Under the pieces are notes generated by a model. It made no database searches. It saw only the letters and a list, made by a program, of their open reading frames with translations, and was not told the DNA's origin. This document shows positions 3,245-48,060 of a DNA stretch of 64,000 nt, in pieces (positions within the stretch are counted from its first letter, which is position 1; every line of letters begins with the position of its first letter). Location of the stretch: positions 620,001 through 684,000 of the forward strand of contig NZ_CP074441.1 in the NCBI RefSeq assembly GCF_018394055.1. Reading direction: 5' to 3'. Origin of the DNA: Weissella ceti (GTDB lineage Bacteria > Bacillota > Bacilli > Lactobacillales > Lactobacillaceae). Both the position numbers and the translations under genes were made by a program.

Positions 3245-4606
3245 TCATTCAGTTTTTTCTGTATTTGTGTTTTCTGCTAATTGTTCGCCTAGCTTGTTAA
3301 AATATGCTTTTGCTTTAAAGCCCCGTGGAATCAACGGAGCAAAGAATGCCCGTGGTAAATCAGGTGACATTTGGGCATAGCCCCAACCTTTCAACTTCTT
3401 TGATAGGTTAACAAAATCATTTGGGTCAGCTTCTGGAAACATCATCGTTAATCCAGCAGACTTCATCTTTCCTAACGTTACACGGAATTGGAATTGATCA
3501 CGAGCCCCAGAACCGATACTATCAGCGTCAGGACGTTGCATAGCCACAATCAAGAAAAACCCAAGTTGACGACCTAGCATAACAATCTCACCCACTTGTT
3601 TCTTCAACTGTTCTTGTTGTTTCCACTCCAACTTACTTACAAACGCTCCAAATTCATCAAACACAAAGAAACTAGGTTTCAATTCAAAATCACGATAATC
3701 GCCCATACCGTCATCGTTTTTCAGAATTTCAGTATATTCTTCTGCACGTAGATACATCTCATCATAAAACTTTGTAAATGCCTTTAAAATACGGTCATCA
3801 GAGTAAACCACTTTACCTTTCAAACCCGTTGTTTGTGCCAAACTAGCTAAATCAGTCCGTTTTGGATCAGCAACCATTAAATCAGCACCTGATTTCAAAA
3901 TACCAGAAATAATTGAAAACAAGAAAAATGACTTACCAGAACCAGTATCCCCAGCAACTAACATATGTGGTACTTTGGCAAAGTTCCATGTAAACCCATC
4001 CATGATTTGAATAGAATCACTTTTAATCTCCATATCATCTAATGGCACACGTGCCTTTTCAGGGAAAACTAAAAATTCATGTATCACAAATCCGTCTTCT
4101 GCCGTTTCATCAGACTTTGTAGAACGTGTAGACATCACAATTTCACTCGATAAGATCCCGTCTTTAAATTGTTTTTGAAATTTATTACCGTCTTGTGGTA
4201 GATATAACTGAAAACCAGTCGGCAAAAATTTAACATACAGACGTGGATAATAAACAAGCTTTTTCTTTTGCTTACCATCTTTATTAACGACTTTTTCAGT
4301 ATACAACTGTTTATTTTTAATACTGGTTGCCACTAAGGTCATCTTATAAATCTTGCCCCAAAATCCCATATCATAACGTTTCGCACGGTAAAATGCCCAT
4401 AACACTAACACCGACACAAAATACGCCAAAATACTAACGATTAAAATAACATAATTGATATTAAAAAAGCCAGTCCACAAATAATGGTAACTGGCAATTG
4501 ATAATTGAATAATAGGAACAATCAAAATAGGCAACGATAACGACCAAATCATTTTAGCTGGCAATCTATCAAAGCTATAAAAAATACGAAAGCCACGTTT
4601 AAACAT
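3245..4606 (-). CDS. TcpA/FtsK-like conjugative coupling ATPase
   Basis: This is a 453-residue protein with two membrane segments near the N-terminus (about residues 21-42 and 51-72) followed by a cytoplasmic FtsK/SpoIIIE-type motor. Walker A is AGDTGSGKS near residue 218 and Walker B is PSFFVFDEFGAF near residue 315. The later stretch LGRQLGFFLIVAMQRPDAD is typical of the family. It corresponds to Tn916 Orf21 and ICEBs1 ConQ, which bring the relaxase-DNA complex to the secretion channel. AGGTGG lies 7 nt before the ATG. Length is normal and no defect is visible. Confidence 0.88.
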   Translation of the reverse strand: MFKRGFRIFYSFDRLPAKMIWSLSLPILIVPIIQLSIASYHYLWTGFFNINYVILIVSILAYFVSVLVLWAFYRAKRYDMGFWGKIYKMTLVATSIKNKQLYTEKVVNKDGKQKKKLVYYPRLYVKFLPTGFQLYLPQDGNKFQKQFKDGILSSEIVMSTRSTKSDETAEDGFVIHEFLVFPEKARVPLDDMEIKSDSIQIMDGFTWNFAKVPHMLVAGDTGSGKSFFLFSIISGILKSGADLMVADPKRTDLASLAQTTGLKGKVVYSDDRILKAFTKFYDEMYLRAEEYTEILKNDDGMGDYRDFELKPSFFVFDEFGAFVSKLEWKQQEQLKKQVGEIVMLGRQLGFFLIVAMQRPDADSIGSGARDQFQFRVTLGKMKSAGLTMMFPEADPNDFVNLSKKLKGWGYAQMSPDLPRAFFAPLIPRGFKAKAYFNKLGEQLAENTNTEKTE

Positions 4607-4767: not shown

Positions 4768-5379
4768 TCATTCTGTCAATTTAATATCATCTCCCATTAC
4801 AAAATCATTTTCAATTTGACTTAGCAATGGTAATGGCATGTCCACAACAACTGTTTCGTTCTTTTGCTTATCATGCACACTCAACTTAACAACGTCTTCC
4901 TTAATAGCGTCCATATCTTCACCAGTACGAGCTGCTTGACGACGTTCATTAGACTTTGCTTGTGAGAATCCAGTCTTAACACCAATGAATTGTAGTTCTT
5001 GTCCAATGTATTGATTAACAGGGATTTCATAATCGTTATCAGAAAATGTGACCATAATATCTGATCCACCAGTTACTTCGTCTGCCCAGCGTGATTTTTC
5101 ATCTGAATCTGCCTTAACCAATTTTCCAGTCAATACACCTGAATTGGCGTCTGTATCACGACCAATCCCTGATGATGTAATTTCAGCATTAATTAAACGA
5201 ACTTCTTCCATAAAATTAAAGTCTGCTGGGTTAAAGTTATCTTGTTTCTTCACGGTAATTAGATGATTACCAAGCACCTTTTCAGCACTTAAAGAGATAA
5301 AATCACCATTTACACCCCCATACTTCAACTTTCCAAGTGTATTTTCAACGTTCAAAGGTAGATCCATAAGTGTCAACAT
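4768..5379 (-). CDS. DUF961-family ICE protein
   Basis: The protein is 203 residues from the ATG at 5379, chosen because GGAG sits 9 nt before it. An ATG at 5394 has only a poor site. The opening pattern of a short beta-rich region ending in EVRLINAEITSSG resembles the Tn916 Orf22/Orf23 family (DUF961), the first genes of this transfer operon. The C-terminal half (about residues 95-200) is longer than in Tn916 proteins and acidic. Function is not established; the family always travels with TcpA and MobT. No membrane segment is present. Confidence 0.65.
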   Translation of the reverse strand: MLTLMDLPLNVENTLGKLKYGGVNGDFISLSAEKVLGNHLITVKKQDNFNPADFNFMEEVRLINAEITSSGIGRDTDANSGVLTGKLVKADSDEKSRWADEVTGGSDIMVTFSDNDYEIPVNQYIGQELQFIGVKTGFSQAKSNERRQAARTGEDMDAIKEDVVKLSVHDKQKNETVVVDMPLPLLSQIENDFVMGDDIKLTE

Positions 5380-5430
5380 AATAAAATTCTCCATTTTCTT
5401 TTTTAAAATAATTTGATTTACTGCAAAATA

Positions 5431-5461
5431 AAAACCGACTATCTAGTTGATAATCAGTTTT
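5431..5461. repeat. Inverted repeat upstream of membrane-protein cassette 1
   Basis: The arms AAAACCGACTATC and GATAATCAGTTTT pair with two mismatches around a 5-nt centre and end just before the -35 box of the next promoter. The second cassette has a counterpart at the same place. It could be an operator or a bidirectional terminator between the ICE operon and the cassette. Confidence 0.55.
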
Positions 5462-5466
5462 GTTAA

Positions 5467-5496
5467 TTGATATTCTATTCGCCTGCTCGGTATAAT
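5467..5496 (+). promoter_or_regulatory. Sigma-A promoter of cassette 1
   Basis: TTGATA and TATAAT are separated by 18 bases. The transcript would start about 45 nt before the membrane-protein ATG. The element is nearly identical in cassette 2. Confidence 0.7.
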
Positions 5497-5543
5497 TAAT
5501 ACGTCATCGCAATATGCGTTAAATTTATTATTAAGGAAAAAAC

Positions 5544-6092
5544 ATGAAACACGTGAAAAAACCACCTATCCAAGTAACAATGCTCCCTAATGAGAAAACA
5601 CCATATAAATTTACATATACAAAAAAATATATTTTGAAGTTATGTTTAACTAGTTTTCTTTTGTCATTTATTATTTCTATGCCACTATCTTTTACTGAAA
5701 ACCTATCAAACACAATTGTAACATTATGGATAATGATGATAATAATTTCATTAATTACGACAATAAGCATTATATTAGTGTATTCTGTCGTAAACAAATC
5801 TCTAAATCGTTCTGTTGTCGGCTATTGCCTTATACTGTTCTCGATTGTTTGTTTCTTATTATCTGCATTTGTTGCTCTTCCTGCAACTACAAATATGCAC
5901 ATAATCTCTGTATTTTATATTTTCATAACGGTAAGTGTAACTTTACACATATTAACATTAGTTTGGGATTATCTTGATACTGTTGATATTCAAGAACATA
6001 GTTATTTAGGTAAAAACCTAACAATCTTAACTCCAATTTTGTTGAGTTTTGGACTCTTATTGGTTACCATATTAACTTTCTTCAAAAAATAA
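5544..6092 (+). CDS. Unknown multi-pass membrane protein, cassette copy 1
   Basis: This is a 182-residue, very AT-rich gene with about five predicted membrane segments (roughly residues 30-52, 58-80, 92-112, 118-140 and 158-180). The N-terminus is short, basic and cytoplasmic (MKHVKKPPIQV). AAGGA precedes the ATG. I do not recognise a family. The protein shares its first 25 or so residues' pattern (MKxxKKxPIxV, then P-x-Y) and its last segment (LTIL, then IxxSF, then a Lys tail) with the gene at 6892, while the middle differs. Its strand is opposite to the ICE operon. Candidate roles are surface exclusion, immunity or defence, none of them shown. Confidence 0.7.
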   Translation: MKHVKKPPIQVTMLPNEKTPYKFTYTKKYILKLCLTSFLLSFIISMPLSFTENLSNTIVTLWIMMIIISLITTISIILVYSVVNKSLNRSVVGYCLILFSIVCFLLSAFVALPATTNMHIISVFYIFITVSVTLHILTLVWDYLDTVDIQEHSYLGKNLTILTPILLSFGLLLVTILTFFKK

Positions 6093-6250
6093 TAAACGCA
6101 GTAGTAGTCTACCAGACCCCATTAAATGGGCTATCCCCTATTGAACTACATTCGTACAATAAGGAATGACTTAGATTCTTCAATCCAAGTTTCGGCTTTA
6201 TTGATAAAGGGGTCAAACTGTTCTCTTTTTCGTCCGCAACACCCCTAGAA
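6093..6250 (-). ncRNA. Structured repeat element, copy 1
   Basis: The element starts right after the stop codon of the membrane-protein gene and is about 85-90% identical to 7480-7638. It contains a hairpin CCCAT-TAA-ATGGG (6118-6130). A second hairpin at 6169-6190 pairs fully only in the minus-strand RNA because it needs a G-U pair. A third, CTTTA/TAAAG, follows, and a GGGGT/ACCCC pairing spans about 35 nt. The minus orientation is inferred from the G-U pairs. It could be an RNA or a single-strand origin of a rolling-circle element. Confidence 0.5.
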
Positions 6251-6365
6251 GCAAGACCTATTGTGTTCAGTGATATTTTAGATGTATAATGTTCTTTGCT
6301 AGTGGCATTATACATCTAAAATGTTTGAACAGGTTTTGTTCTTATTTTATTTATTTGTCAAAGAT

Positions 6366-6399
6366 CAAGTCGGCTGATTTAATCAGTCGGCTTTTTCTT
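6366..6399 (+). terminator. Terminator of cassette 1
   Basis: An 11-bp stem with two G-U pairs (GTCGGCTGATT against AATCAGTCGGC) is followed by TTTTTCTTTTT on the plus strand. The same structure recurs in cassette 2. Confidence 0.75.
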
Positions 6400-6416
6400 T
6401 TTGTCCCATAACTAAG

Positions 6417-6490
6417 AAAAAGCACAGAAACGATAGATTACAAACACGTTACGAATTAGTAACTTCGTTCTCTATCACTTCTATGCTTTT
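6417..6490. repeat. Long hairpin element of cassette 1
   Basis: The outer arms AAAAGCACAGAA..GATAGA and TCTATC..TTCTATGCTTTT pair with few mismatches. A small inner palindrome GTTAC/GTAAC lies in the middle. Cassette 2 has the same outer arms with a different inner palindrome. The 325 or so bases that follow, up to the cassette 2 inverted repeat, hold only AATGCC/GGCATT half-repeats and no gene. Confidence 0.6.
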
Positions 6491-6776
6491 AATATTAATA
6501 TTTTGGTTGCAACCCCTAATGCCAATTTTTTTGAAATTGTAATGTATTTGTAACCGAAACGGATCTACCCCTAGGCATTATGCGGATTTAATTAATTACA
6601 AATCGACTACAATGTGTATTTCTAACGAATATATCATTAACAAATTAAGAAACATTCGTTACCAATAGCACTTTAGAAGTTACTATATCTATTAATATGT
6701 AGTTTGTAAGTGTTAAACGTTACTGGAAACTAAAACTAATTTCTTTTTTAAAATAGTTAGTCTGTTACATAAAATA

Positions 6777-6808
6777 AAAACTGATTATCACGTAAATGAT
6801 AACCAGTA
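6777..6808. repeat. Inverted repeat upstream of cassette 2
   Basis: The arms AAAACTGATTATC and GATAACCAGTAT match the counterpart upstream of cassette 1 in position and sequence, with changes in both arms. It directly precedes the -35 box. Confidence 0.5.
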
Positions 6809-6812
6809 TGGA

Positions 6813-6842
6813 TTGATATTATATTCGCCTGCTCTGTATAAT
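6813..6842 (+). promoter_or_regulatory. Sigma-A promoter of cassette 2
   Basis: TTGATA, an 18-base spacer and TATAAT. Only two bases in the spacer differ from the cassette 1 promoter. Confidence 0.7.
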
Positions 6843-6891
6843 TAATACATCGTCGCAATTTACGTTAAGTCTATTTAAGGAATTACGGATT

Positions 6892-7479
6892 ATGAAACAA
6901 CACAAGAAAAAACCAATAGAAGTAAAATTAATTGAACCAGAAGTACCAAAATACATATATAATCCATCAAAAACAACAAATGATTTTATGATCGCAACAT
7001 TTCTGTTATTAATCATGATGTCAATTCCATATACAAATAAAATGTTATATATAATAAAATTAAATGATAATCATGAAATAATTTTAAATTACTTAATACT
7101 AGGTATTATGGCGATTTTATCAACGAGTATAATGCCTATTACCCGATCAAAAAAGATAACTATAAAGGAAAAAACTAAACTATCCTTCAAAGAAATAAAA
7201 GCAACGCACCCAATATTGTTTACATTGCTCATTGCAACAATGTGTATCCAACAACTTATATATCGTTCAAACGGAATATTGTATGGTATATCTTTTTTCA
7301 TGCTTTTAATGATAGAATGGTATTTCTTGATTTGGATAACCCACTATATATTCCAATCTATTGATTATTTCTGCAAAGTTGATATAAAAAAACAAAATAT
7401 TATCATATCAAATACTCTAACAATTCTACCAATAATAATTTCGTTTATTGCATTAATTGTTTCACTCCTAAAATCCTAA
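6892..7479 (+). CDS. Unknown multi-pass membrane protein, cassette copy 2
   Basis: This is a 195-residue, extremely AT-rich gene (Ile, Lys and Asn rich). About five membrane segments are predicted (near residues 31-48, 63-84, 105-125, 128-152 and 173-193), again after a basic MKQHKKKPIEV start. The ending LTILPIIISFIALIVSLLKS mirrors the end of the copy 1 protein, and the segment before it (YFCKVDIKKQN) mirrors YLDTVDIQEHS. The centre has diverged strongly. AAGGAATTACGGATT precedes the ATG. The pair looks like an amplified family with conserved ends and a variable core. Function is unknown. Confidence 0.7.
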   Translation: MKQHKKKPIEVKLIEPEVPKYIYNPSKTTNDFMIATFLLLIMMSIPYTNKMLYIIKLNDNHEIILNYLILGIMAILSTSIMPITRSKKITIKEKTKLSFKEIKATHPILFTLLIATMCIQQLIYRSNGILYGISFFMLLMIEWYFLIWITHYIFQSIDYFCKVDIKKQNIIISNTLTILPIIISFIALIVSLLKS

Positions 7480-7638
7480 ATAAACGCAATAGTAGTCTAT
7501 CAACCAGTCATTAAATGACATATCCCCTATTGAACTACGTTCGCACGATAAGGAATTACTTAAATTCTTCAATCTAAGTTTCGGCTTTATTGATAAAGGG
7601 GTCAAACTGTTCTCTTTTACGTCCGCAACACCCCTAGA
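7480..7638 (-). ncRNA. Structured repeat element, copy 2
   Basis: This is the counterpart of 6093-6250. The first hairpin is GTCAT-TAA-ATGAC (7507-7519), so two base pairs changed on both sides relative to copy 1. The stem at 7558-7579 also stays paired in minus-strand RNA, with its G-U pair at a different position. The sequence between stems is nearly invariant. A small ORF on the minus strand crosses it in both copies but has unrelated ends, and I do not call it a gene. Confidence 0.5.
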
Positions 7639-7753
7639 ATAAAAGGATTTACGGTTGTTCAACTACATGTTATACTTATCCATATTCTACATGCATAAAT
7701 ATCTGTAAATGAATGAAAATCTTTTATTCTTTTTATATTTATTTATCAAAGAT

Positions 7754-7786
7754 CAAGTCCGCTGATTTTAATCAGTCGGCTTTTTC
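7754..7786 (+). terminator. Terminator of cassette 2
   Basis: The stem AGTCCGCTGATT/AATCAGTCGGCT has one mismatch and G-U pairs, and TTTTTCTTTTT follows. It matches the cassette 1 terminator. Confidence 0.7.
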
Positions 7787-7807
7787 TTTTTGTCCCATAA
7801 ACTAAAG

Positions 7808-7882
7808 AAAAAGCATAGAGATGATAAAGAATATAAACATTACATTTATGTAACGCATTTCTCTATCACTTCTATGCTTTTA
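7808..7882. repeat. Long hairpin element of cassette 2
   Basis: The outer arms AAAAGCATAGAG..TGATA and TATCACTTCTATGCTTTT surround an inner palindrome TTACAT/ATGTAA. The inner part differs in sequence from cassette 1 but still pairs. Confidence 0.6.
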
Positions 7883-8304
7883 ATATTATAGTTTTGAAAG
7901 CACGAATATTTATCACTAACCTTCTAGTAACTCATACTATGAATCTCTTTTATGCATTTTAGATTTAAAAATTCTCTTGATTATTTGCGCCTGATTCAGA
8001 ATTGCTTTGTTTTTTATGACGTTATATAAACGCATTGAGACATTATTTCAAACTATTTCTGTGGATACTTGGTTATCTTGTTTATTGAGGACGTATTTCA
8101 GAAACAGCTCAAACTCACATATTGTGCCTGTTAAATCCAGTCACAGTTTGATAATTAACTGATGCCATTGTTTCAGCGTATTTCTGATAACTATTAACTT
8201 TTCACAAGTTACTTGTGGTGACTCTCAATTGATTATTTAAAGCGTGTAACTCATCAAAAATATTTTAAATATTTGGGGCTATTGTTGTTATTGCGATCTT
8301 AGAA
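7883..8304. other. Gene-poor stretch, nothing recognised
   Basis: All six frames are broken by stops. The only notable signal is GACGTTATATAAACG at 8018-8032, which recurs at 9493-9507. It may be decayed DNA at the ICE boundary. Confidence 0.5.
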
Positions 8305-8364
8305 TTAGTGTAACAACACATAAATGAATGCAATCAACAAACTGATACCTTCCGCTAGAGACAT
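8305..8364 (-). pseudogene. Remnant of a putative holin-like toxin gene
   Basis: After AAAGGAG the frame reads MSLAEGISLLIAFIYVLLH and stops after 19 residues. The opening MSxxEALxLMIxF pattern and the single hydrophobic helix are those of the short putative holin-like toxins (Hol_Tox, type I toxin-antitoxin) common in lactic acid bacteria, usually about 30 residues. A one-base shift near the Ile-Tyr would continue the hydrophobic helix (CVVTLILRS). The gene is therefore probably frameshifted and dead. The upstream leader with ATGGTGCAAAAAACC also resembles that family's context. Identification is from memory of the family. Confidence 0.4.
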
Positions 8365-8613
8365 TGTCAGCTAACTCCTTTCTACAGATTTTGATGTGTT
8401 GGTTTTTTGCACCATACGCACCACCACCTTTCGATGAAAGTCAGCCACCGTCCTATTAACTTGTATCCTCAGCTTATCATGTTAAATTTATAAACACAAT
8501 CTAAAAACTCCTCTAATCATTGATATGACAGTGTTCATACGTATCTCAAAGACTTTAAATCTATCCTCAAGAATATGAATTGTATATTTAATAAGCTAGA
8601 TTAACTAATAAAA

Positions 8614-8635
8614 AACCACCCAAATTTGAGTGGTT
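8614..8635 (-). terminator. Terminator of the oxidoreductase gene
   Basis: AACCAC and GTGGTT flank the AAATTT centre, with a T-run on the minus strand 23 nt past the stop codon. Confidence 0.7.
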
Positions 8636-8657
8636 GGTATAATTATAAACTTATAAT

Positions 8658-9284
8658 TTATTTGTCGTATACACCCATTGGTTGATGCTTGTTTCCTGAA
8701 TTGATTTCATCCATAAACGCATCAGCATAGTCAGCATAACTAATATAACTCTTACCATTTTCATCCACTCCCAAGTTCTCACCTGAGAAATAATGATGTC
8801 CAGTATGTGGTGCATCAAATTGCATGTCCAATGGTGGTGTCATGTAAAGCCAATTAAATGACGTGTCATTCTTCAACAACTCATATGCCGCAACTTCATT
8901 TTCAGCCAAAGGCTTAATGAATGCTGGTAAATCAGGTGAGTCAATCACACGTGAATGATCTGGTAAATATGAAACTCCTGCTCCACCAGCAATAATCAAT
9001 CTCGTCTTTGTACCTTGAAAGATATCCATCAACTTTTGCATTGAAGTGCTAAATTGCTTCAAGTCATCTGATGGTGCATTGTAAGCATTAATCACAACGT
9101 CAAATTTTTCGATATCTTGAGTGATTAAATCAAAAAGATCTTTTTTCTCCACTACTAAATCATTGGTATTCGTTAGCTTTTCTGGATGACGGACAATTGC
9201 AGTTGTCTCATATCCTTCTTTCAATGAACGCTCTACTAATAGTGATCCTAGCTTACCAGTTGCACCAATAATTCCTACCTTCAT
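8658..9284 (-). CDS. NAD(P)-binding atypical short-chain oxidoreductase
   Basis: This is a 208-residue protein starting with the Rossmann motif GIIGATGKLG (residues 4-13), followed by a loop with Arg-His (IVRHPEK) that suggests NADPH. It belongs to the NAD(P)H-binding/NmrA-like atypical SDRs, such as YwnB-type proteins. Substrates of these proteins are mostly unknown. The usual YxxxK pair is not evident. AGGA lies 7 nt before the ATG, and TATAAT occurs on the minus strand near 9345. The gene stands alone between the ICE-like region and the adhesin, with better codon use than the cassettes next to it. Confidence 0.8.
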   Translation of the reverse strand: MKVGIIGATGKLGSLLVERSLKEGYETTAIVRHPEKLTNTNDLVVEKKDLFDLITQDIEKFDVVINAYNAPSDDLKQFSTSMQKLMDIFQGTKTRLIIAGGAGVSYLPDHSRVIDSPDLPAFIKPLAENEVAAYELLKNDTSFNWLYMTPPLDMQFDAPHTGHHYFSGENLGVDENGKSYISYADYADAFMDEINSGNKHQPMGVYDK

Positions 9285-9586
9285 TTTTGCTGTCCTCCAA
9301 ATATTTTGTAATGTATTTGAGCTCTTTCAAGTTCCATATTTAATTATACGCCAAAGAACCTTTAAAAAAACTAAAAACAAATACAACTGTATGTATATAT
9401 GAACGCATGAATATTATTAAACTGAACATATGCCTATTGGCTCAATAGTTATCGATCAGCGATATGGATATTTTAAATAAAAGCCATTCTTAGACGTTAT
9501 ATAAACGTACTCAGAGATGTTTTTGAATTTAAATCAAGGTATTTATCCATCTACAAACGCTGATGTTTTCTTACCTATTTAATTTA
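9285..9586. other. Intergenic stretch before the adhesin terminator
   Basis: It contains the oxidoreductase promoter region near 9345 and the second copy of GACGTTATATAAACG (9493-9507). No gene or RNA is recognised. Confidence 0.5.
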
Positions 9587-9663: not shown

Positions 9664-11193
9664 TTATCGCTTACGGTAATATACAAGTCCTAGCGCAAAA
9701 CTTAACATAACACTTCCAATAACTGTCCACACATCTGTCGTTGTATAGCCAGTTTCTGGTAATGCGTCCGTGTTTATTTTGTGTTGCTTGTTTACGTTAT
9801 TCCCTTGATTTCCGTTTACATCATTAGCCATAACGTTTGATGATTGTCCATCTTGCGCTGTGTTGTTTTCCGTAGATTCAACGATTTCATTAGACATTGC
9901 TGAATCCTTGTTTTCTGGTTCTGTTACAGAACTTTCATCGGGTGTTACTTCATCCTTATTTTCTGGTTCTGTCACAGAATTTTCATCAGGTGTTGTTTCA
10001 TCCTTGTTTTCTGGTTCTGTTACAGAGTTTTCATCAGGTGTTACTTCATCCTTGTTTTCTGGTTCTGTTACAGAATTTTCATCAGGTGTAACTTCATCCT
10101 TGTTTTCTGGTTCTGTCACAGAATTTTCATCAGGTGTTACTTCATCCTTGTTTTCTTCTGTTACAGTATTTTCATCAGGTGTTACTTCATCCTTGTTTTC
10201 TGGTTCTGTTACCGGCGGTTCTACCTTATCACCAACACTGCTTCCACCACCAGCAGTGTTTCGTGTTTTCTTTCGAACTGTTAATCCAACCTTGTTCGCA
10301 TCATATCGAATCCAAGCCATGTTGTCATATTCTGCCGCTTTACCACTATCAGTAACACGGGTCTTATAACGCACTAGCAACTCTTCATCAGGCATTACTT
10401 TATCCATAGTAAATCCAAATCCACGATCATTGTCAGTAAATGTTACTGAATAACGTGATGGATCTACTGCTGTACTTTGTCCATTTTTACGAATAACAAA
10501 CTCAAATGAATCCTTAATATAATCTAATCCGGCTCCAAGTTCGTCTCCGCCTTCAATGTTTTCCATCAAAGCGTTGAAACCATTGTAGTTAAGTTGTAGT
10601 TCGTAATTGATGATTGTTTGATCTTTAGGATCCATCTCTCCGAATTTACTAAACTCACTGGCTTCATATTTTACACCTTTTTGAAGAACGTTGTGTTTTT
10701 CAACAGTTCCTCTAACAGGTAATTGTACTTCTACAGGACCATCAGTCACGCCAGATTCATTTTGGTCCCATTTCGTTGATACGAAAAATGAACCGCGATT
10801 ATTCTGCTTTTCTGTTGCACGATCTGTAAAAGTCAGCTTCAACTTACCAGTGCCTTCTTCAAATGATGCTTTAGCCACAACCACGCCATCAGCATTCTTA
10901 ATGTCAAAGTCACTAAGTTGAGACACCTTCAATACTTTTGGCAATTCTACTGACATAGAATCCCCAGGTTTCACTGTATCGGGGTATGCAAAATCATACG
11001 ATAGACGGAAATCTTCTAAATCTTTCACTTCGATTCCACTATCTAATACATTCTGATTTGCGCTATTTATTAATGTTACGTTCGTCAAAAATTGTGAACC
11101 GTAATCAGTGGCTGCAGATGCAGTAACATTAATACCAAAAATCCCAAATAACAATAAAACAATTATAAACAATGTTTTCTTAAAATGACTCAT
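9664..11193 (-). CDS. LPXTG-anchored repeat-rich adhesin
   Basis: This is a 509-residue surface protein. A signal peptide covers residues 1-28 (ending TASAA). Residues 30-315 form two beta-rich regions resembling the N-terminal Ig-like/collagen-binding folds of MSCRAMM adhesins (PGDSMSVELP, later YKTRVTDSG). From about 325 to 440 there are seven 16-residue repeats of the type VTEPENKDEVTPDENS, the second shortened by two residues. The C-terminus has the sortase A signal LPETG near residue 478, a membrane helix and RKR. It is covalently linked to peptidoglycan and likely adhesive; the ligand is unknown. GGAGGATTTAGGCA precedes the ATG. The protein shares domain order with the one at 48385. Confidence 0.85.
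   Translation of the reverse strand: MSHFKKTLFIIVLLLFGIFGINVTASAATDYGSQFLTNVTLINSANQNVLDSGIEVKDLEDFRLSYDFAYPDTVKPGDSMSVELPKVLKVSQLSDFDIKNADGVVVAKASFEEGTGKLKLTFTDRATEKQNNRGSFFVSTKWDQNESGVTDGPVEVQLPVRGTVEKHNVLQKGVKYEASEFSKFGEMDPKDQTIINYELQLNYNGFNALMENIEGGDELGAGLDYIKDSFEFVIRKNGQSTAVDPSRYSVTFTDNDRGFGFTMDKVMPDEELLVRYKTRVTDSGKAAEYDNMAWIRYDANKVGLTVRKKTRNTAGGGSSVGDKVEPPVTEPENKDEVTPDENTVTEENKDEVTPDENSVTEPENKDEVTPDENSVTEPENKDEVTPDENSVTEPENKDETTPDENSVTEPENKDEVTPDESSVTEPENKDSAMSNEIVESTENNTAQDGQSSNVMANDVNGNQGNNVNKQHKINTDALPETGYTTTDVWTVIGSVMLSFALGLVYYRKR
9915..10215. repeat. 48-bp tandem repeats inside the adhesin gene
   Basis: About seven copies of a 48-bp unit encode an acidic Pro/Glu/Asp stalk. One copy is 42 bp, which keeps the frame. 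Near identity between neighbours suggests recent expansion and likely length variation between strains. Confidence 0.85.
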
Positions 11194-11816: not shown

Positions 11817-13880
11817 TTAAACAAAGTCGCCATTAAACCCAAAAGTCTTTTTTCCTTTATAGGTGTAATCAGTCAATTTGCCACGATATGTGTATTCTCG
11901 TTTAGTACCTTTACCTTGAATATCAATTTCCTTCCCTGATAGCAAGTCATTGATTTCATTTGCAGTAAACGTATGTTTTCCCCATTTAGCGTTAAAAGAA
12001 ACTTCTTTACCAGTAGGTGTGTACATCCCCGTTATTTTCTCTTTTGGTACGTGTTTTTTGGTACGTTTAGTAGGTTTTGCAAAGTGATCAGCGAGTGATT
12101 CCGCATTTTTTAGAATCACAGGCATATCGTTTTTGATGGTTAATTCAATTGAGTTTTGTGCATAAGCCATACTTGTTTCTTGACGACCAACCTCTTTAAA
12201 GATATCAAAAATACGTTTCGTAATAGATGGATTAGCAATAAACGTGCCTTTTACAAGATATGCAGAGATAGCCCCTTCATTCGTAAGTTTTATTTTACCC
12301 TTCGTATCTATAAAATAGGCATTTTTACCACTTGAAAGATCTGAAAATGTAGATGTTCGAGTGGCTCCTGTTCCAATATCATACTTTTCAAGAAAGGTCT
12401 TTAACCATTGCCAAGTGGGCTGTTGTGGTTTTGGATTTTGTCCTTCATGAACAAACATATTGGCAGTATTCCCAATCCCATCACTGGTTTGATCTTCTTT
12501 CTCAGCATCTCCATCTTGGTAGACCAATTTCCAATTCATATGAACAGGCATATTTAATACAGATGTGAACATCGGTGCTTCTTGAATATTTGCTTTAATT
12601 TGACGGTAAACATAATCTTCAGCGAACATCGCTAAGAAATTCTTAGCTAACACTTGATATATACGTGCGGCAGATGCTCCGAACTTCTGTAACGCATCTA
12701 ATGACGTTGGCACCTTTTCACCAGGACGATTAGCCCCATGTGCTCCTTCATCCTTAATATGGGTCTTTCTGGCGGTGCGGTGTGTTAATAGCGTCGTTGG
12801 CACACCCACAACCCCTGCAATTTGATCAACCATTGGTAAGAGGTCCATAAATTGTTCAGTGGTAATGGTACGATCTTCTGTACGTGGGTATGAAACAATT
12901 TGTGCTTCATACATTTTCTGATAGGTTGCTAAGACATCTTTTGCCTTGAAACCTTCTTTGGCTAATACTGCGGACAGTGATGACAGGTCCAGTAATTTTG
13001 GTGGTGCTTGGCGTTTTTCTTGGTCCGCAACAATCTGTGGTGTCCCGACTAGTGGATAAGGACCACTGGTCATGTCTGTTTCAGCAGCTCGTTTATTTGG
13101 AAAACGAAAAGGAATTACGTCTAATCCTTTCGTTGAGCGGGTATACACATTTCCCTTATTATCCTTATAGCGAGCTTCATAGAAAGGAACCCGTTGATAG
13201 TTTTTAATCGCTTCTTCTTGTTCATAGACCTTGTAGATCATTGCCGACTTTAAACGGCCTTGACGAGAGAGCAATTTATAACCTTGTTGCTCGGCTCCCT
13301 TTGTCGCAATACGGGTAAGTTGCATTGACGCAAAATCCCAACGACTACGTGCCATCCCCATCAATAGGTCACCATCCTGTGTTGGGTCACTGACATCACG
13401 TAACGCATGAAACGCTTTTTGGATACTCTTGGCCGATTCATCCATAAAATCAGCACGTAAGACTTGACCACGCCAACCAATTGCTTGAATCGCTTCCCAT
13501 GCCAACAATTCACCTTCACCGGATGGATCATTATCCGTCGCAATCACTAAAGCGTCTACTTGCTTCGCTTGTAGTTTTAACTCATCTAATAACTTTTTAG
13601 TTGATTCAATCTTACCCGTACGGAGATTCTTGGATTTAATGTACGTGTTCTTCCAAGCAAATTGTGATAAGTCCCAAGGCAAGTATTCTAATCGCCAACT
13701 AGCTAGTTGTTCCTCTAAGGCCTTTGGTACTTGCTTCTCTGGTCCATGTAGTTGCATCACATGTCCGCGCAAACTCGTTAATTCATAATCGAAATCCAAA
13801 TAATGACCTTGCTTACCTCCCAAGGCCTTTTCAAAGTTTTTTCGGGCGCTTGGTTTTTCGGTGATAATCAAATATTTCAT
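11817..13880 (-). CDS. topB: DNA topoisomerase III (type IA)
   Basis: The protein is 687 residues from the ATG at 13880, chosen because GGGAGG lies 9 nt before it. The frame opens 7 codons earlier. The TOPRIM domain is at the start (IITEKPSA, then TDNDPSGEGE near residue 100, a variant of the usual DxDxxGE). The catalytic tyrosine is in SYPRTE near residue 338. Type IA enzymes relax negative supercoils and decatenate DNA by single-strand passage. The C-terminus (from about 600) carries a small repeat-like domain (SFNAKWGKHTFTANEINDLLSG) typical of plasmid and ICE TopB forms as well as chromosomal ones. A second, mobile-element type copy is possible but cannot be judged here. Confidence 0.88.
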   Translation of the reverse strand: MKYLIITEKPSARKNFEKALGGKQGHYLDFDYELTSLRGHVMQLHGPEKQVPKALEEQLASWRLEYLPWDLSQFAWKNTYIKSKNLRTGKIESTKKLLDELKLQAKQVDALVIATDNDPSGEGELLAWEAIQAIGWRGQVLRADFMDESAKSIQKAFHALRDVSDPTQDGDLLMGMARSRWDFASMQLTRIATKGAEQQGYKLLSRQGRLKSAMIYKVYEQEEAIKNYQRVPFYEARYKDNKGNVYTRSTKGLDVIPFRFPNKRAAETDMTSGPYPLVGTPQIVADQEKRQAPPKLLDLSSLSAVLAKEGFKAKDVLATYQKMYEAQIVSYPRTEDRTITTEQFMDLLPMVDQIAGVVGVPTTLLTHRTARKTHIKDEGAHGANRPGEKVPTSLDALQKFGASAARIYQVLAKNFLAMFAEDYVYRQIKANIQEAPMFTSVLNMPVHMNWKLVYQDGDAEKEDQTSDGIGNTANMFVHEGQNPKPQQPTWQWLKTFLEKYDIGTGATRTSTFSDLSSGKNAYFIDTKGKIKLTNEGAISAYLVKGTFIANPSITKRIFDIFKEVGRQETSMAYAQNSIELTIKNDMPVILKNAESLADHFAKPTKRTKKHVPKEKITGMYTPTGKEVSFNAKWGKHTFTANEINDLLSGKEIDIQGKGTKREYTYRGKLTDYTYKGKKTFGFNGDFV

Positions 13881-14015
13881 TGCCAATTGCCTCCCATACA
13901 TAGTCTCTTACAGTTTCTGACGTTACTGTATTATTTATCCATTGTACTATGAAAAACACTGAATTTGGTTATTCCTCTAGTTGGAAATCATGGTCATATG
14001 TTCAAACAGTCATAT

Positions 14016-47040: not shown

Positions 47041-47062
47041 GGTTAATACCGACCTAATTGCA

Positions 47063-47157
47063 CCACTTTCCTACGCTAGTTTTAACTAGATCAGGTTCTT
47101 GGAATCCAAAGCATTGGCTTTATCTCAGCCGATCACTTCTTTCGGCACTCCCAGTGG
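47063..47157 (-). promoter_or_regulatory. TPP riboswitch upstream of thiS
   Basis: The minus strand has the conserved core: GGGAGTGCC, GGCTGAGAT, AAGAACCTGATCTAG, then ACTAGCGTAGGAAAGTGG, with P1 formed by CCACT and AGTGG. It begins just after the thiE stop, so it gives the thiSFGOD-tenA part its own control. Confidence 0.95.
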
Positions 47158-47159
47158 AT

Positions 47160-47792
47160 TTATATATGTGGCATGTTAATGTTTACTTGACGTAACGCCG
47201 TAACCGTCTTCTCAATATCATTAGACAACATAATCTCACTTACTACAGCTACACCATCAATTGGAAAGCCCGTAAAGGTATGCACATTGTGTGTTTTAAT
47301 TCCCCCAATAGCAACCACTGGTATTTTGACGGTTTCGCCAATATCACGCAGGGTTTCGGGGGATGTTGGTCGTGTAATAACTTTAGTTTGGGTTGGAAAT
47401 ATTGCACCAACGCCTAAGTAATCCGCCCCCTCGCGTTCCGCCTCAATCGCACGATTCACGCTTTTGGCTGACACACCAATTAATTTATTAGGACCAACTA
47501 ATCGACGCACGATAGATATCGGTAAATCAGCGTCACCGATATGCACTCCAGCCGCATCAACCGCTAACATAATATCTACGCGGTCATCAATAATTAGTGG
47601 TACGTGATACCGATCAGTTATTCTTTTGACGTCCATAGCTAGCTCAAAATAATTACGCGTGGACAGCGATTTTTCGCGCAACTGGATAATGGTTACACCG
47701 GTTTGGCACGCCTCCTCAATAATTTCCAAAAATCGACTTGGCGAATACTCATATTGACCAGTCACAAGATACAGTTGATACGGATTCATCAT
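47160..47792 (-). CDS. thiE: Thiamine phosphate synthase
   Basis: The protein is 210 residues from the ATG at 47792; the ATG three bases on is also possible. It is a TIM-barrel enzyme with TIIQLREKS near residue 33, the DDRVD and GVHIGDADL motifs, and [11 protein letters not shown] near residue 122. It joins HMP-PP and thiazole phosphate. It precedes the thiS unit, and each has its own riboswitch. Confidence 0.93.
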
Positions 47793-47842: not shown

Positions 47843-47965
47843 GAATGTTCATAGTGTAGCGTTAAGAATAAATATTGCTAAACGATCGTCACTGCTCGTG
47901 TTTATACATATGCTTCGAATTATTATTTTGAAGATATGTCGCTAAAGTGTACACCGTCATATTTA

Positions 47966-48047
47966 TTGTTAGCTTCCTACGCTAGTGTTAACTAGATCAG
48001 GTTCTTGGGTATAATCTCAGCCACATTTGGGCACCCCAGCTTTTAAC
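47966..48047 (-). promoter_or_regulatory. TPP riboswitch upstream of thiE
   Basis: The minus strand shows GGGGTGCCC, GGCTGAGAT, AAGAACCTGATCTAG and ACTAGCGTAGGAAGC, the TPP aptamer core. It has a shorter variable arm than the copy at 47063. Confidence 0.95.
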
Positions 48048-48060
48048 AGGATTAGTTTAG

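Follow-up and report, generated by a model that had tools for sequence, protein, structure and literature searches.

A probable family of structured-RNA units beside the transfer operon of MOBT-type conjugative elements in Weissella, with an optional membrane-protein gene

In group I and group II introns, as well as in HEARO RNAs, a loop of the RNA fold may harbour an optional protein gene, and the conjugative element ICEBs1 carries an exclusion membrane protein, YddJ. In the current work we describe a pair of tandem units located in a 64,000-nucleotide (nt) stretch of Weissella ceti DNA (positions 620,001 to 684,000 of contig NZ_CP074441.1, here named the window, being part of a 1.5 Mb chromosome), which adjoin a conjugation operon and each of which contains an open reading frame (ORF) for a membrane protein. 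The pair probably represents a new family of structured-RNA units, so far found only in Weissella, on the transfer-operon side of MOBT-type conjugative elements, the membrane-protein gene being optional cargo in the apical loop of a closing stem (named P0).

Little is known about regulatory RNAs of Gram-positive conjugative elements, canT of Tn916 having been described only in 2024. In Tn916, a terminator (T1) situated 5' of the first transfer gene and close to the end of the element is a proven insulator, and an antiterminator RNA (canT) is located between orf8 and xis; the conjugation operon needs canT in order to pass T1 (Wirachman and Grossman 2024, PMC11658703). The single-strand origin sso1 of ICEBs1 is located just downstream of the relaxase gene nicK (PMC4595007).

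The Weissella locus resembles Tn916 T1 in that intrinsic terminators are found at the element end, upstream of and directed into the conjugation operon, but each Weissella unit has two of these, flanking a structured unit that is probably read the other way, and an insulator role is presumed here by analogy. The likeness to canT lies in the presence, on a MOBT element, of a structured RNA linked to the control of conjugation genes, canT being different in its position between orf8 and xis and in that it is read toward the operon. As in ICEBs1 sso1 and plasmid single-strand origins, conserved noncoding stem-loops spanning a few hundred nt are present on rolling-circle elements (PMC4595007), whereas sso1 is located 3' of the relaxase gene and the Weissella unit, closed by a conserved terminator, precedes the first transfer gene. 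A blastn search against 72,556 plasmids gave no match. The likeness to introns and HEARO RNAs is limited to the presence of an ORF in a loop: the unit is without an Rfam match (among 4227 families, none at gathering threshold in 5380-8650, and only thiamine pyrophosphate (TPP) riboswitches elsewhere in the window), its ORF encodes a membrane protein rather than a nuclease, maturase or transposase-like protein, and there is no sign of splicing or mobility. With YddJ the locus shares a membrane-associated protein on a conjugative element, the Weissella proteins being different in that they lack a sequence-family match and that their exclusion role is putative.

Tandem units in the window and homologues in Weissella

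An earlier note on this DNA had described two copies in direct orientation with the same order of parts, and this layout (5431-6490 and 6780-7881) is borne out by five families of copy-to-copy repeats of 131 nt (92% identity), 105 nt (78%), 92 nt (76%), 62 nt (84%) and 34 nt (100%), whose spacing between copies is near-constant (about 1346 and 1388-1391 nt). Copies 1 and 2 share 91.5% identity in the noncoding core. The higher AT content compared to the backbone, which the note had also remarked upon, is evident from a GC content of 27-31% in the tandem region versus mostly 35-45% in its surroundings, and the proximity of a transfer operon on the opposite strand was likewise confirmed. The first gene of this operon (4768-5394, minus strand), being weakly DUF961-like (Pfam match below cut-off), is divergent from the unit, and the window furthermore encodes a Rep_trans-type relaxase (1333-2565; PF02486, E 9.8e-34; Rol_Rep_N, 1.1e-17) and, near it, an FtsK-like coupling protein (3245-4606; PF01580, E 1.3e-9). 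The presence of relaxase and coupling protein indicates that the carrier would be a MOBT integrative and conjugative element of the ICESt3/Tn916/ICEBs1 superfamily; no tRNA gene is present in the window or in the 20 kb upstream of it. In the first transfer gene, an in-frame TGA (4768-4800, directly following ...GDDIKLTE) causes an early end, with the frame continuing like the C-termini of other copies (RIRFF...), and this TGA is either a nonsense mutation or a sequencing error.

A protein profile derived from the two window proteins gave a C-terminal match in another Weissella genome (G312). A covariance model (R1), built from three cores (the two window copies and G312), retrieved, among 398 genomes of the family, W. 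viridescens at 151 bits (E 7e-38) and W. oryzae at 28.6 bits (E 1e-4). In the corresponding units the motifs TCGCCTGCTC and TCATCGCAATATGCG, which R1 did not include, are present upstream, with no ORF from leader to core. A pattern of these two motifs matched 4 of the 398 genomes, all being Weissella and all at unit loci, the reversed-control pattern having no match among the genomes listed. With a second covariance model (R2), built from six sequences, genome G302 and a third W. oryzae copy were also retrieved, these further copies not being part of its training set and scoring 74 and 51 bits. The total amounts to eight complete units in five Weissella genomes. W. oryzae SG25 (loci L064, L037, L063 and L087) has at least three and perhaps four copies, the fourth of which ends at a contig edge and may duplicate the third, together with four relaxase matches and two element types.

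The covariance-model search of Lactobacillales that the earlier note had envisaged was run, and among the genomes sampled the unit was found only in Weissella, beside conjugation genes; among 295 Lactobacillales genomes, R2 matched only the genome of the window itself. Plasmid and phage records contained no homologue by blastn and tblastn, the weak matches being chance AT-rich or coding sequences, and the open-licence full-text literature describes no such RNA for Weissella elements, which is weak evidence. Several candidates were rejected: the first blastn matches in other genera (two loci), a profile match in clpC, three viral-contig matches to the pattern and one Lachnospiraceae match were attributed to chance, and candidates in Duganella and Thalassotalea gave no model match. 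Other genera also yielded model matches scoring 18-23 bits, of which those examined (three) are located within or between unrelated genes.

Each of the eight complete units adjoins a MOBT-type conjugation operon at its first gene, from which it is divergent. The relaxase is present in 6 of 28 Weissella genomes, and the unit was detected by model in five of these six and in none of the other 22 (for genome G313 the check covered one relaxase, a second one being situated near a contig end). The sixth relaxase-bearing genome (G018) gave no significant model match; inspection by eye of the same place revealed AGACATTTCTCTCT, 14 nt in length, together with a comparable far hairpin, and this locus is probably a degraded homologue of the unit. 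The first transfer gene of the window is 45-53% identical to the unit-adjoining gene in G312, in W. viridescens and at one W. oryzae copy; this type is found at four loci (five units), and a second type is found at three loci, its members being about 50-88% identical among themselves. A scan of the genome collection for the first transfer gene gave no match.

The membrane-protein gene is absent from five of the eight units (W. viridescens, G302 and three W. oryzae copies), all of which possess the 5' motif, the structured core, the rightward terminator and the far hairpin, and in G312 it has frameshifts and has lost its stop codon within an intact unit. The conserved entity is therefore the non-coding structured unit, which is very probably an RNA of about 320-390 nt.

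Fold and covariation of the unit

On the plus strand of copy 1, the unit contains an invariant 5' motif, TCGCCTGCTC (5479-5488; identical in seven of eight units, with 8 of 10 bases in the eighth), the hairpin PX (5490-5502; GTAT...ATAC), which includes TATAAT, and a conserved leader, TCATCGCAATATGCGTTAA (5504-5522), which includes the outer 5' strand of P0. The 5' strand of P0 (5515-5532, with a 5-nt bulge) pairs with a 3' strand (6088-6100) that overlaps the stop codon of the ORF. The structured core (6093-6246) contains H1 (6101-6112), H2 (6118-6130), H3 (6139-6161), H4 (6170-6189) and H6 (6208-6246), the C/U-rich loop of the latter (6217-6230) being the most conserved single-stranded segment, and is followed by a long stem, H7 (6252-6338), the sequence of which is variable while its pairing is kept. 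The corresponding plus-strand parts of copy 2 are the 5' motif (6825-6834), PX (6835-6849; TGTAT...ATACA), the 5' strand of P0 (6861-6877) and its 3' partner (7477-7488), again overlapping the stop codon, the core (7481-7635, with H1 at 7489-7500 and H6 at 7597-7635) and H7 (7636-7730). The proposed fold would place PX between two invariant motifs, followed by the closing stem P0, H1, H2, in some cases H3, H4, H6 and the long H7. In P0, the start of the core is paired with the leader (TGCG, the 5-nt bulge and a variable strand), and the P0 loop is short in ORF-less units and holds the whole ORF in gene-bearing units.

Covariation across species bears out the conserved nucleic-acid structures that the earlier note had claimed. 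For the five core helices in three sequences, 10 of 28 pairs have both sides changed while 95% of cells are paired, a result reached by none of 500 shuffles, and pairing falls to 39-47% when the core partners are slid by one column; with six sequences, both sides are changed in 13 of 38 pairs. In a comparison of eight units, the own strands of PX, inner P0, H1, H2, H6, H7 (seven units) and the terminator pair at 98-100%, and crossed strands at 45-81%; considering that the helices were assigned by hand, the former value is partly so by construction, and it is the difference from crossed strands that is informative. For PX, six distinct stems occur in eight units, with 100% own pairing and 46% crossed pairing. 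The H6 loop retains its TTCTCT core in all eight units and is recognisable also in a degraded further one. The 155-nt structured element of the earlier note is accordingly supported by compensatory changes across species, but it is only the middle of a longer structure, whose first part, TCGCCTGCTC...TCATCGCAATATGCG, precedes the gene and whose stem P0 closes around it.

Two minor features were observed in this part of the unit. The leader (5513-5521) holds ATG CGT TAA (Met-Arg-stop), as it does in six other units and not in copy 2, which is probably a coincidence, and in the G302 unit (L062, around 9170-9290) H2 and H4 are separated by an additional stretch of about 100 nt, which repeats H1/H2-like sequence (AATAGTAGTCCATTAACCAACTATTT). 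A minus-strand ORF running through the 155-nt element was rejected, as it is not kept in G312, where it meets an early stop.

Terminators and the acting strand

Scanning for intrinsic terminators returned five terminator-like sites where 0.6 were expected. The terminator that the earlier note had placed 3' of the structured element was found to be rightward and to be present in all eight units (6367-6402 in copy 1 and 7755-7791 in copy 2, plus strand, by scan and wobble bias), with 9 GU to 1 AC over the units, as expected of RNA from the plus strand. The inverted repeat and the long hairpin at the unit edges are also real, but both are directed leftward, opposite to the gene. The former is a leftward intrinsic terminator, located in copy 1 at 5431-5461 ahead of the conjugation operon (minus strand; 13 pairs and a T tail) and in copy 2 at 6780-6807 (minus strand; scan and wobble bias), with 0 GU to 6 AC on the plus strand over four units. 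The latter (H8, leftward terminator-like; 6418-6490 and 7809-7881, minus strand) is a repeat whose loop is too long for the terminator scan and has 1 GU to 6 AC on the plus strand over the copies. These counts indicate that the 5' inverted repeat and the far hairpin act on the minus strand, on which the terminators at 5461-5431 and 6807-6780 lie upstream of the first transfer gene and are directed into the operon.

The near-identical sigma-A promoter of the earlier note scores 11/12 in both window copies, but its -35 is not conserved across units and its TATAAT lies inside a hairpin (PX) whose sequence changes across species while pairing stays, so that it is only a putative promoter.

The unit would probably be transcribed rightward, away from the conjugation operon, and stop at its own terminator, as judged from the sequence. 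Several observations weigh against an RNA read in this direction. The core helices show no wobble bias, having 6 GU to 5 AC in about 319 pairs, nearly all of which are Watson-Crick; folding of the opposite strand is no worse (mean z -1.83 versus -1.31); single-sequence folding is only weakly better than that of shuffled sequence; and the only long complement of the H6 loop within the elements is its own antisense. The core alone settles neither the acting strand nor the choice between RNA and single-stranded DNA, and the acting strand is indicated instead by the terminator, the orientation of the ORFs and synteny.

It is therefore conceivable, though unlikely, that the unit works as single-stranded DNA in rolling-circle replication or transfer, for example as a single-strand origin or as a single-strand promoter priming or expressing the region in the recipient, with the terminators merely serving to exclude transcription. 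Such sites are required by MOBT elements, whose replication is of the rolling-circle type (PMC4595007), and the strand-neutral folding and the low, unbiased wobble of the core agree with this. However, a rightward terminator with RNA-type wobble and a U tract is present in all eight units, including the five that lack an ORF, which implies a transcript; all three ORFs are oriented like the supposed transcript, and sso1 of ICEBs1, just downstream of nicK, occupies a different place (PMC4595007).

Membrane-protein genes, possible roles and neighbouring sequences

The two window ORFs, ORF 1 (5544-6092, plus strand, 182 amino acids (aa), five predicted helices) and ORF 2 (6892-7479, plus strand, 195 aa), are located in the P0 apical loop. 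The divergence of the proteins claimed by the earlier note was confirmed, their identity being 28% over the whole alignment, and neither has a family in Pfam, NCBIfam or PHROG above cut-off or with a convincing E-value, a PADLOC defence-system profile match, or plasmid relatives by tblastn. At the DNA level the ORFs are 66.7% identical, compared to 64.3% for shuffled sequence with the same aligner. Conservation of both protein ends had also been claimed, together with diverged protein cores and conserved noncoding parts; the last two were found as described, and of the ends it is the C-terminus that is conserved, the only significant local match being located there (36% over 36 aa). This C-terminal stretch is common to the two intact window ORFs and the broken ORF of G312. 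A distant C-terminal relative in another genus (30 bits, E 4e-7) adjoins a lysin-like gene and is without the unit. The AlphaFold model has five helices and a predicted local distance difference test (pLDDT) score of 52, too low for a fold search.

The earlier note interpreted the locus as a membrane-protein cassette under diversifying selection, the noncoding structures being its regulation. The near-saturated divergence of the ORFs inside flanks of 78-92% identity and the relatedness of the ORFs at the C-terminus speak for this interpretation, which is nonetheless improbable and already largely refuted, considering that, with the frame remaining intact, five of eight units lack the gene and one has it in broken form. 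As for selection, the ORFs are too diverged for a test of nonsynonymous to synonymous substitution rates (dN/dS), and their divergence within conserved flanks fits ORF exchange at a fixed site or concerted evolution of the flanks equally well. The co-occurrence of element and gene on which that interpretation depended fails for the gene, the element co-occurring with the conjugation operon instead. A conserved frame around a divergent gene is easily misread as the regulation of that gene, when the frame itself is the conserved entity.

With regard to function, the opposite-direction terminators at the unit edges would, by position and by analogy to Tn916 T1, probably shield the conjugation operon from outside transcription, and the rightward structured RNA may help to set the state of this operon within the life cycle of the element. 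An ORF in the P0 apical loop could share the transcript and the terminator of the RNA without the fold being broken, so that this loop may be used as a berth for cargo genes. The most likely role is that of a regulatory RNA hosting interchangeable genes of exclusion or immunity type, the exclusion or immunity-type role of the membrane proteins being the weakest step of this proposal. More specifically, we tentatively suggest a new class of RNA, specific to conjugative elements and regulatory or protein-recruiting, with an evolutionarily open P0 loop that would accept interchangeable membrane-protein genes, so that one transcript would serve as structured RNA and as exclusion or immunity mRNA. 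That the unit tracks the relaxase across Weissella and sits between insulator-like terminators and the operon raises the question of what is controlled and why the loop tolerates cargo. Targeting of first-transfer-gene start sites by the H6 C/U-rich loop in an anti-Shine-Dalgarno manner was found to be no better than for shuffled sequence.

The leftward terminators occupy the position of T1, the Tn916 operon requires canT in order to pass T1 (PMC11658703) and the minus strand of the unit folds at least as well as the plus strand, all of which would suit a core acting in cis as a canT-like antiterminator on a leftward transcript, for passing the leftward terminators after excision. Such a role is very improbable: on a leftward transcript the unit comes after the first leftward terminator (H8) and not before it, the unit has its own rightward terminator, and canT is located elsewhere, between orf8 and xis. 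Equally far-fetched is a toxin-antitoxin or defence pair made up of RNA and protein, since, for all that a small membrane protein of no known family within a structured RNA on a mobile element might suggest it, no PADLOC match was obtained, a distant C-terminal relative exists without the RNA, and most units are without the protein, so that the RNA does not need it.

Apart from the regulatory RNA unit favoured here, other features of the window were observed. Between the unit and the next gene (8285-8493, minus strand) there is a full-length, sub-threshold match to the Listeria small RNA rli28 (38.3 bits, gathering threshold 45, E 0.016). The two TPP riboswitches (47051-47162 and 47957-48048, minus strand) are located approximately 0.9 kb apart. 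An ORF for an LPXTG-type surface protein with a PENKDEVTPDENSVTE repeat (9664-11193, minus strand) adjoins a putative topoisomerase-like ORF (11817-13901).

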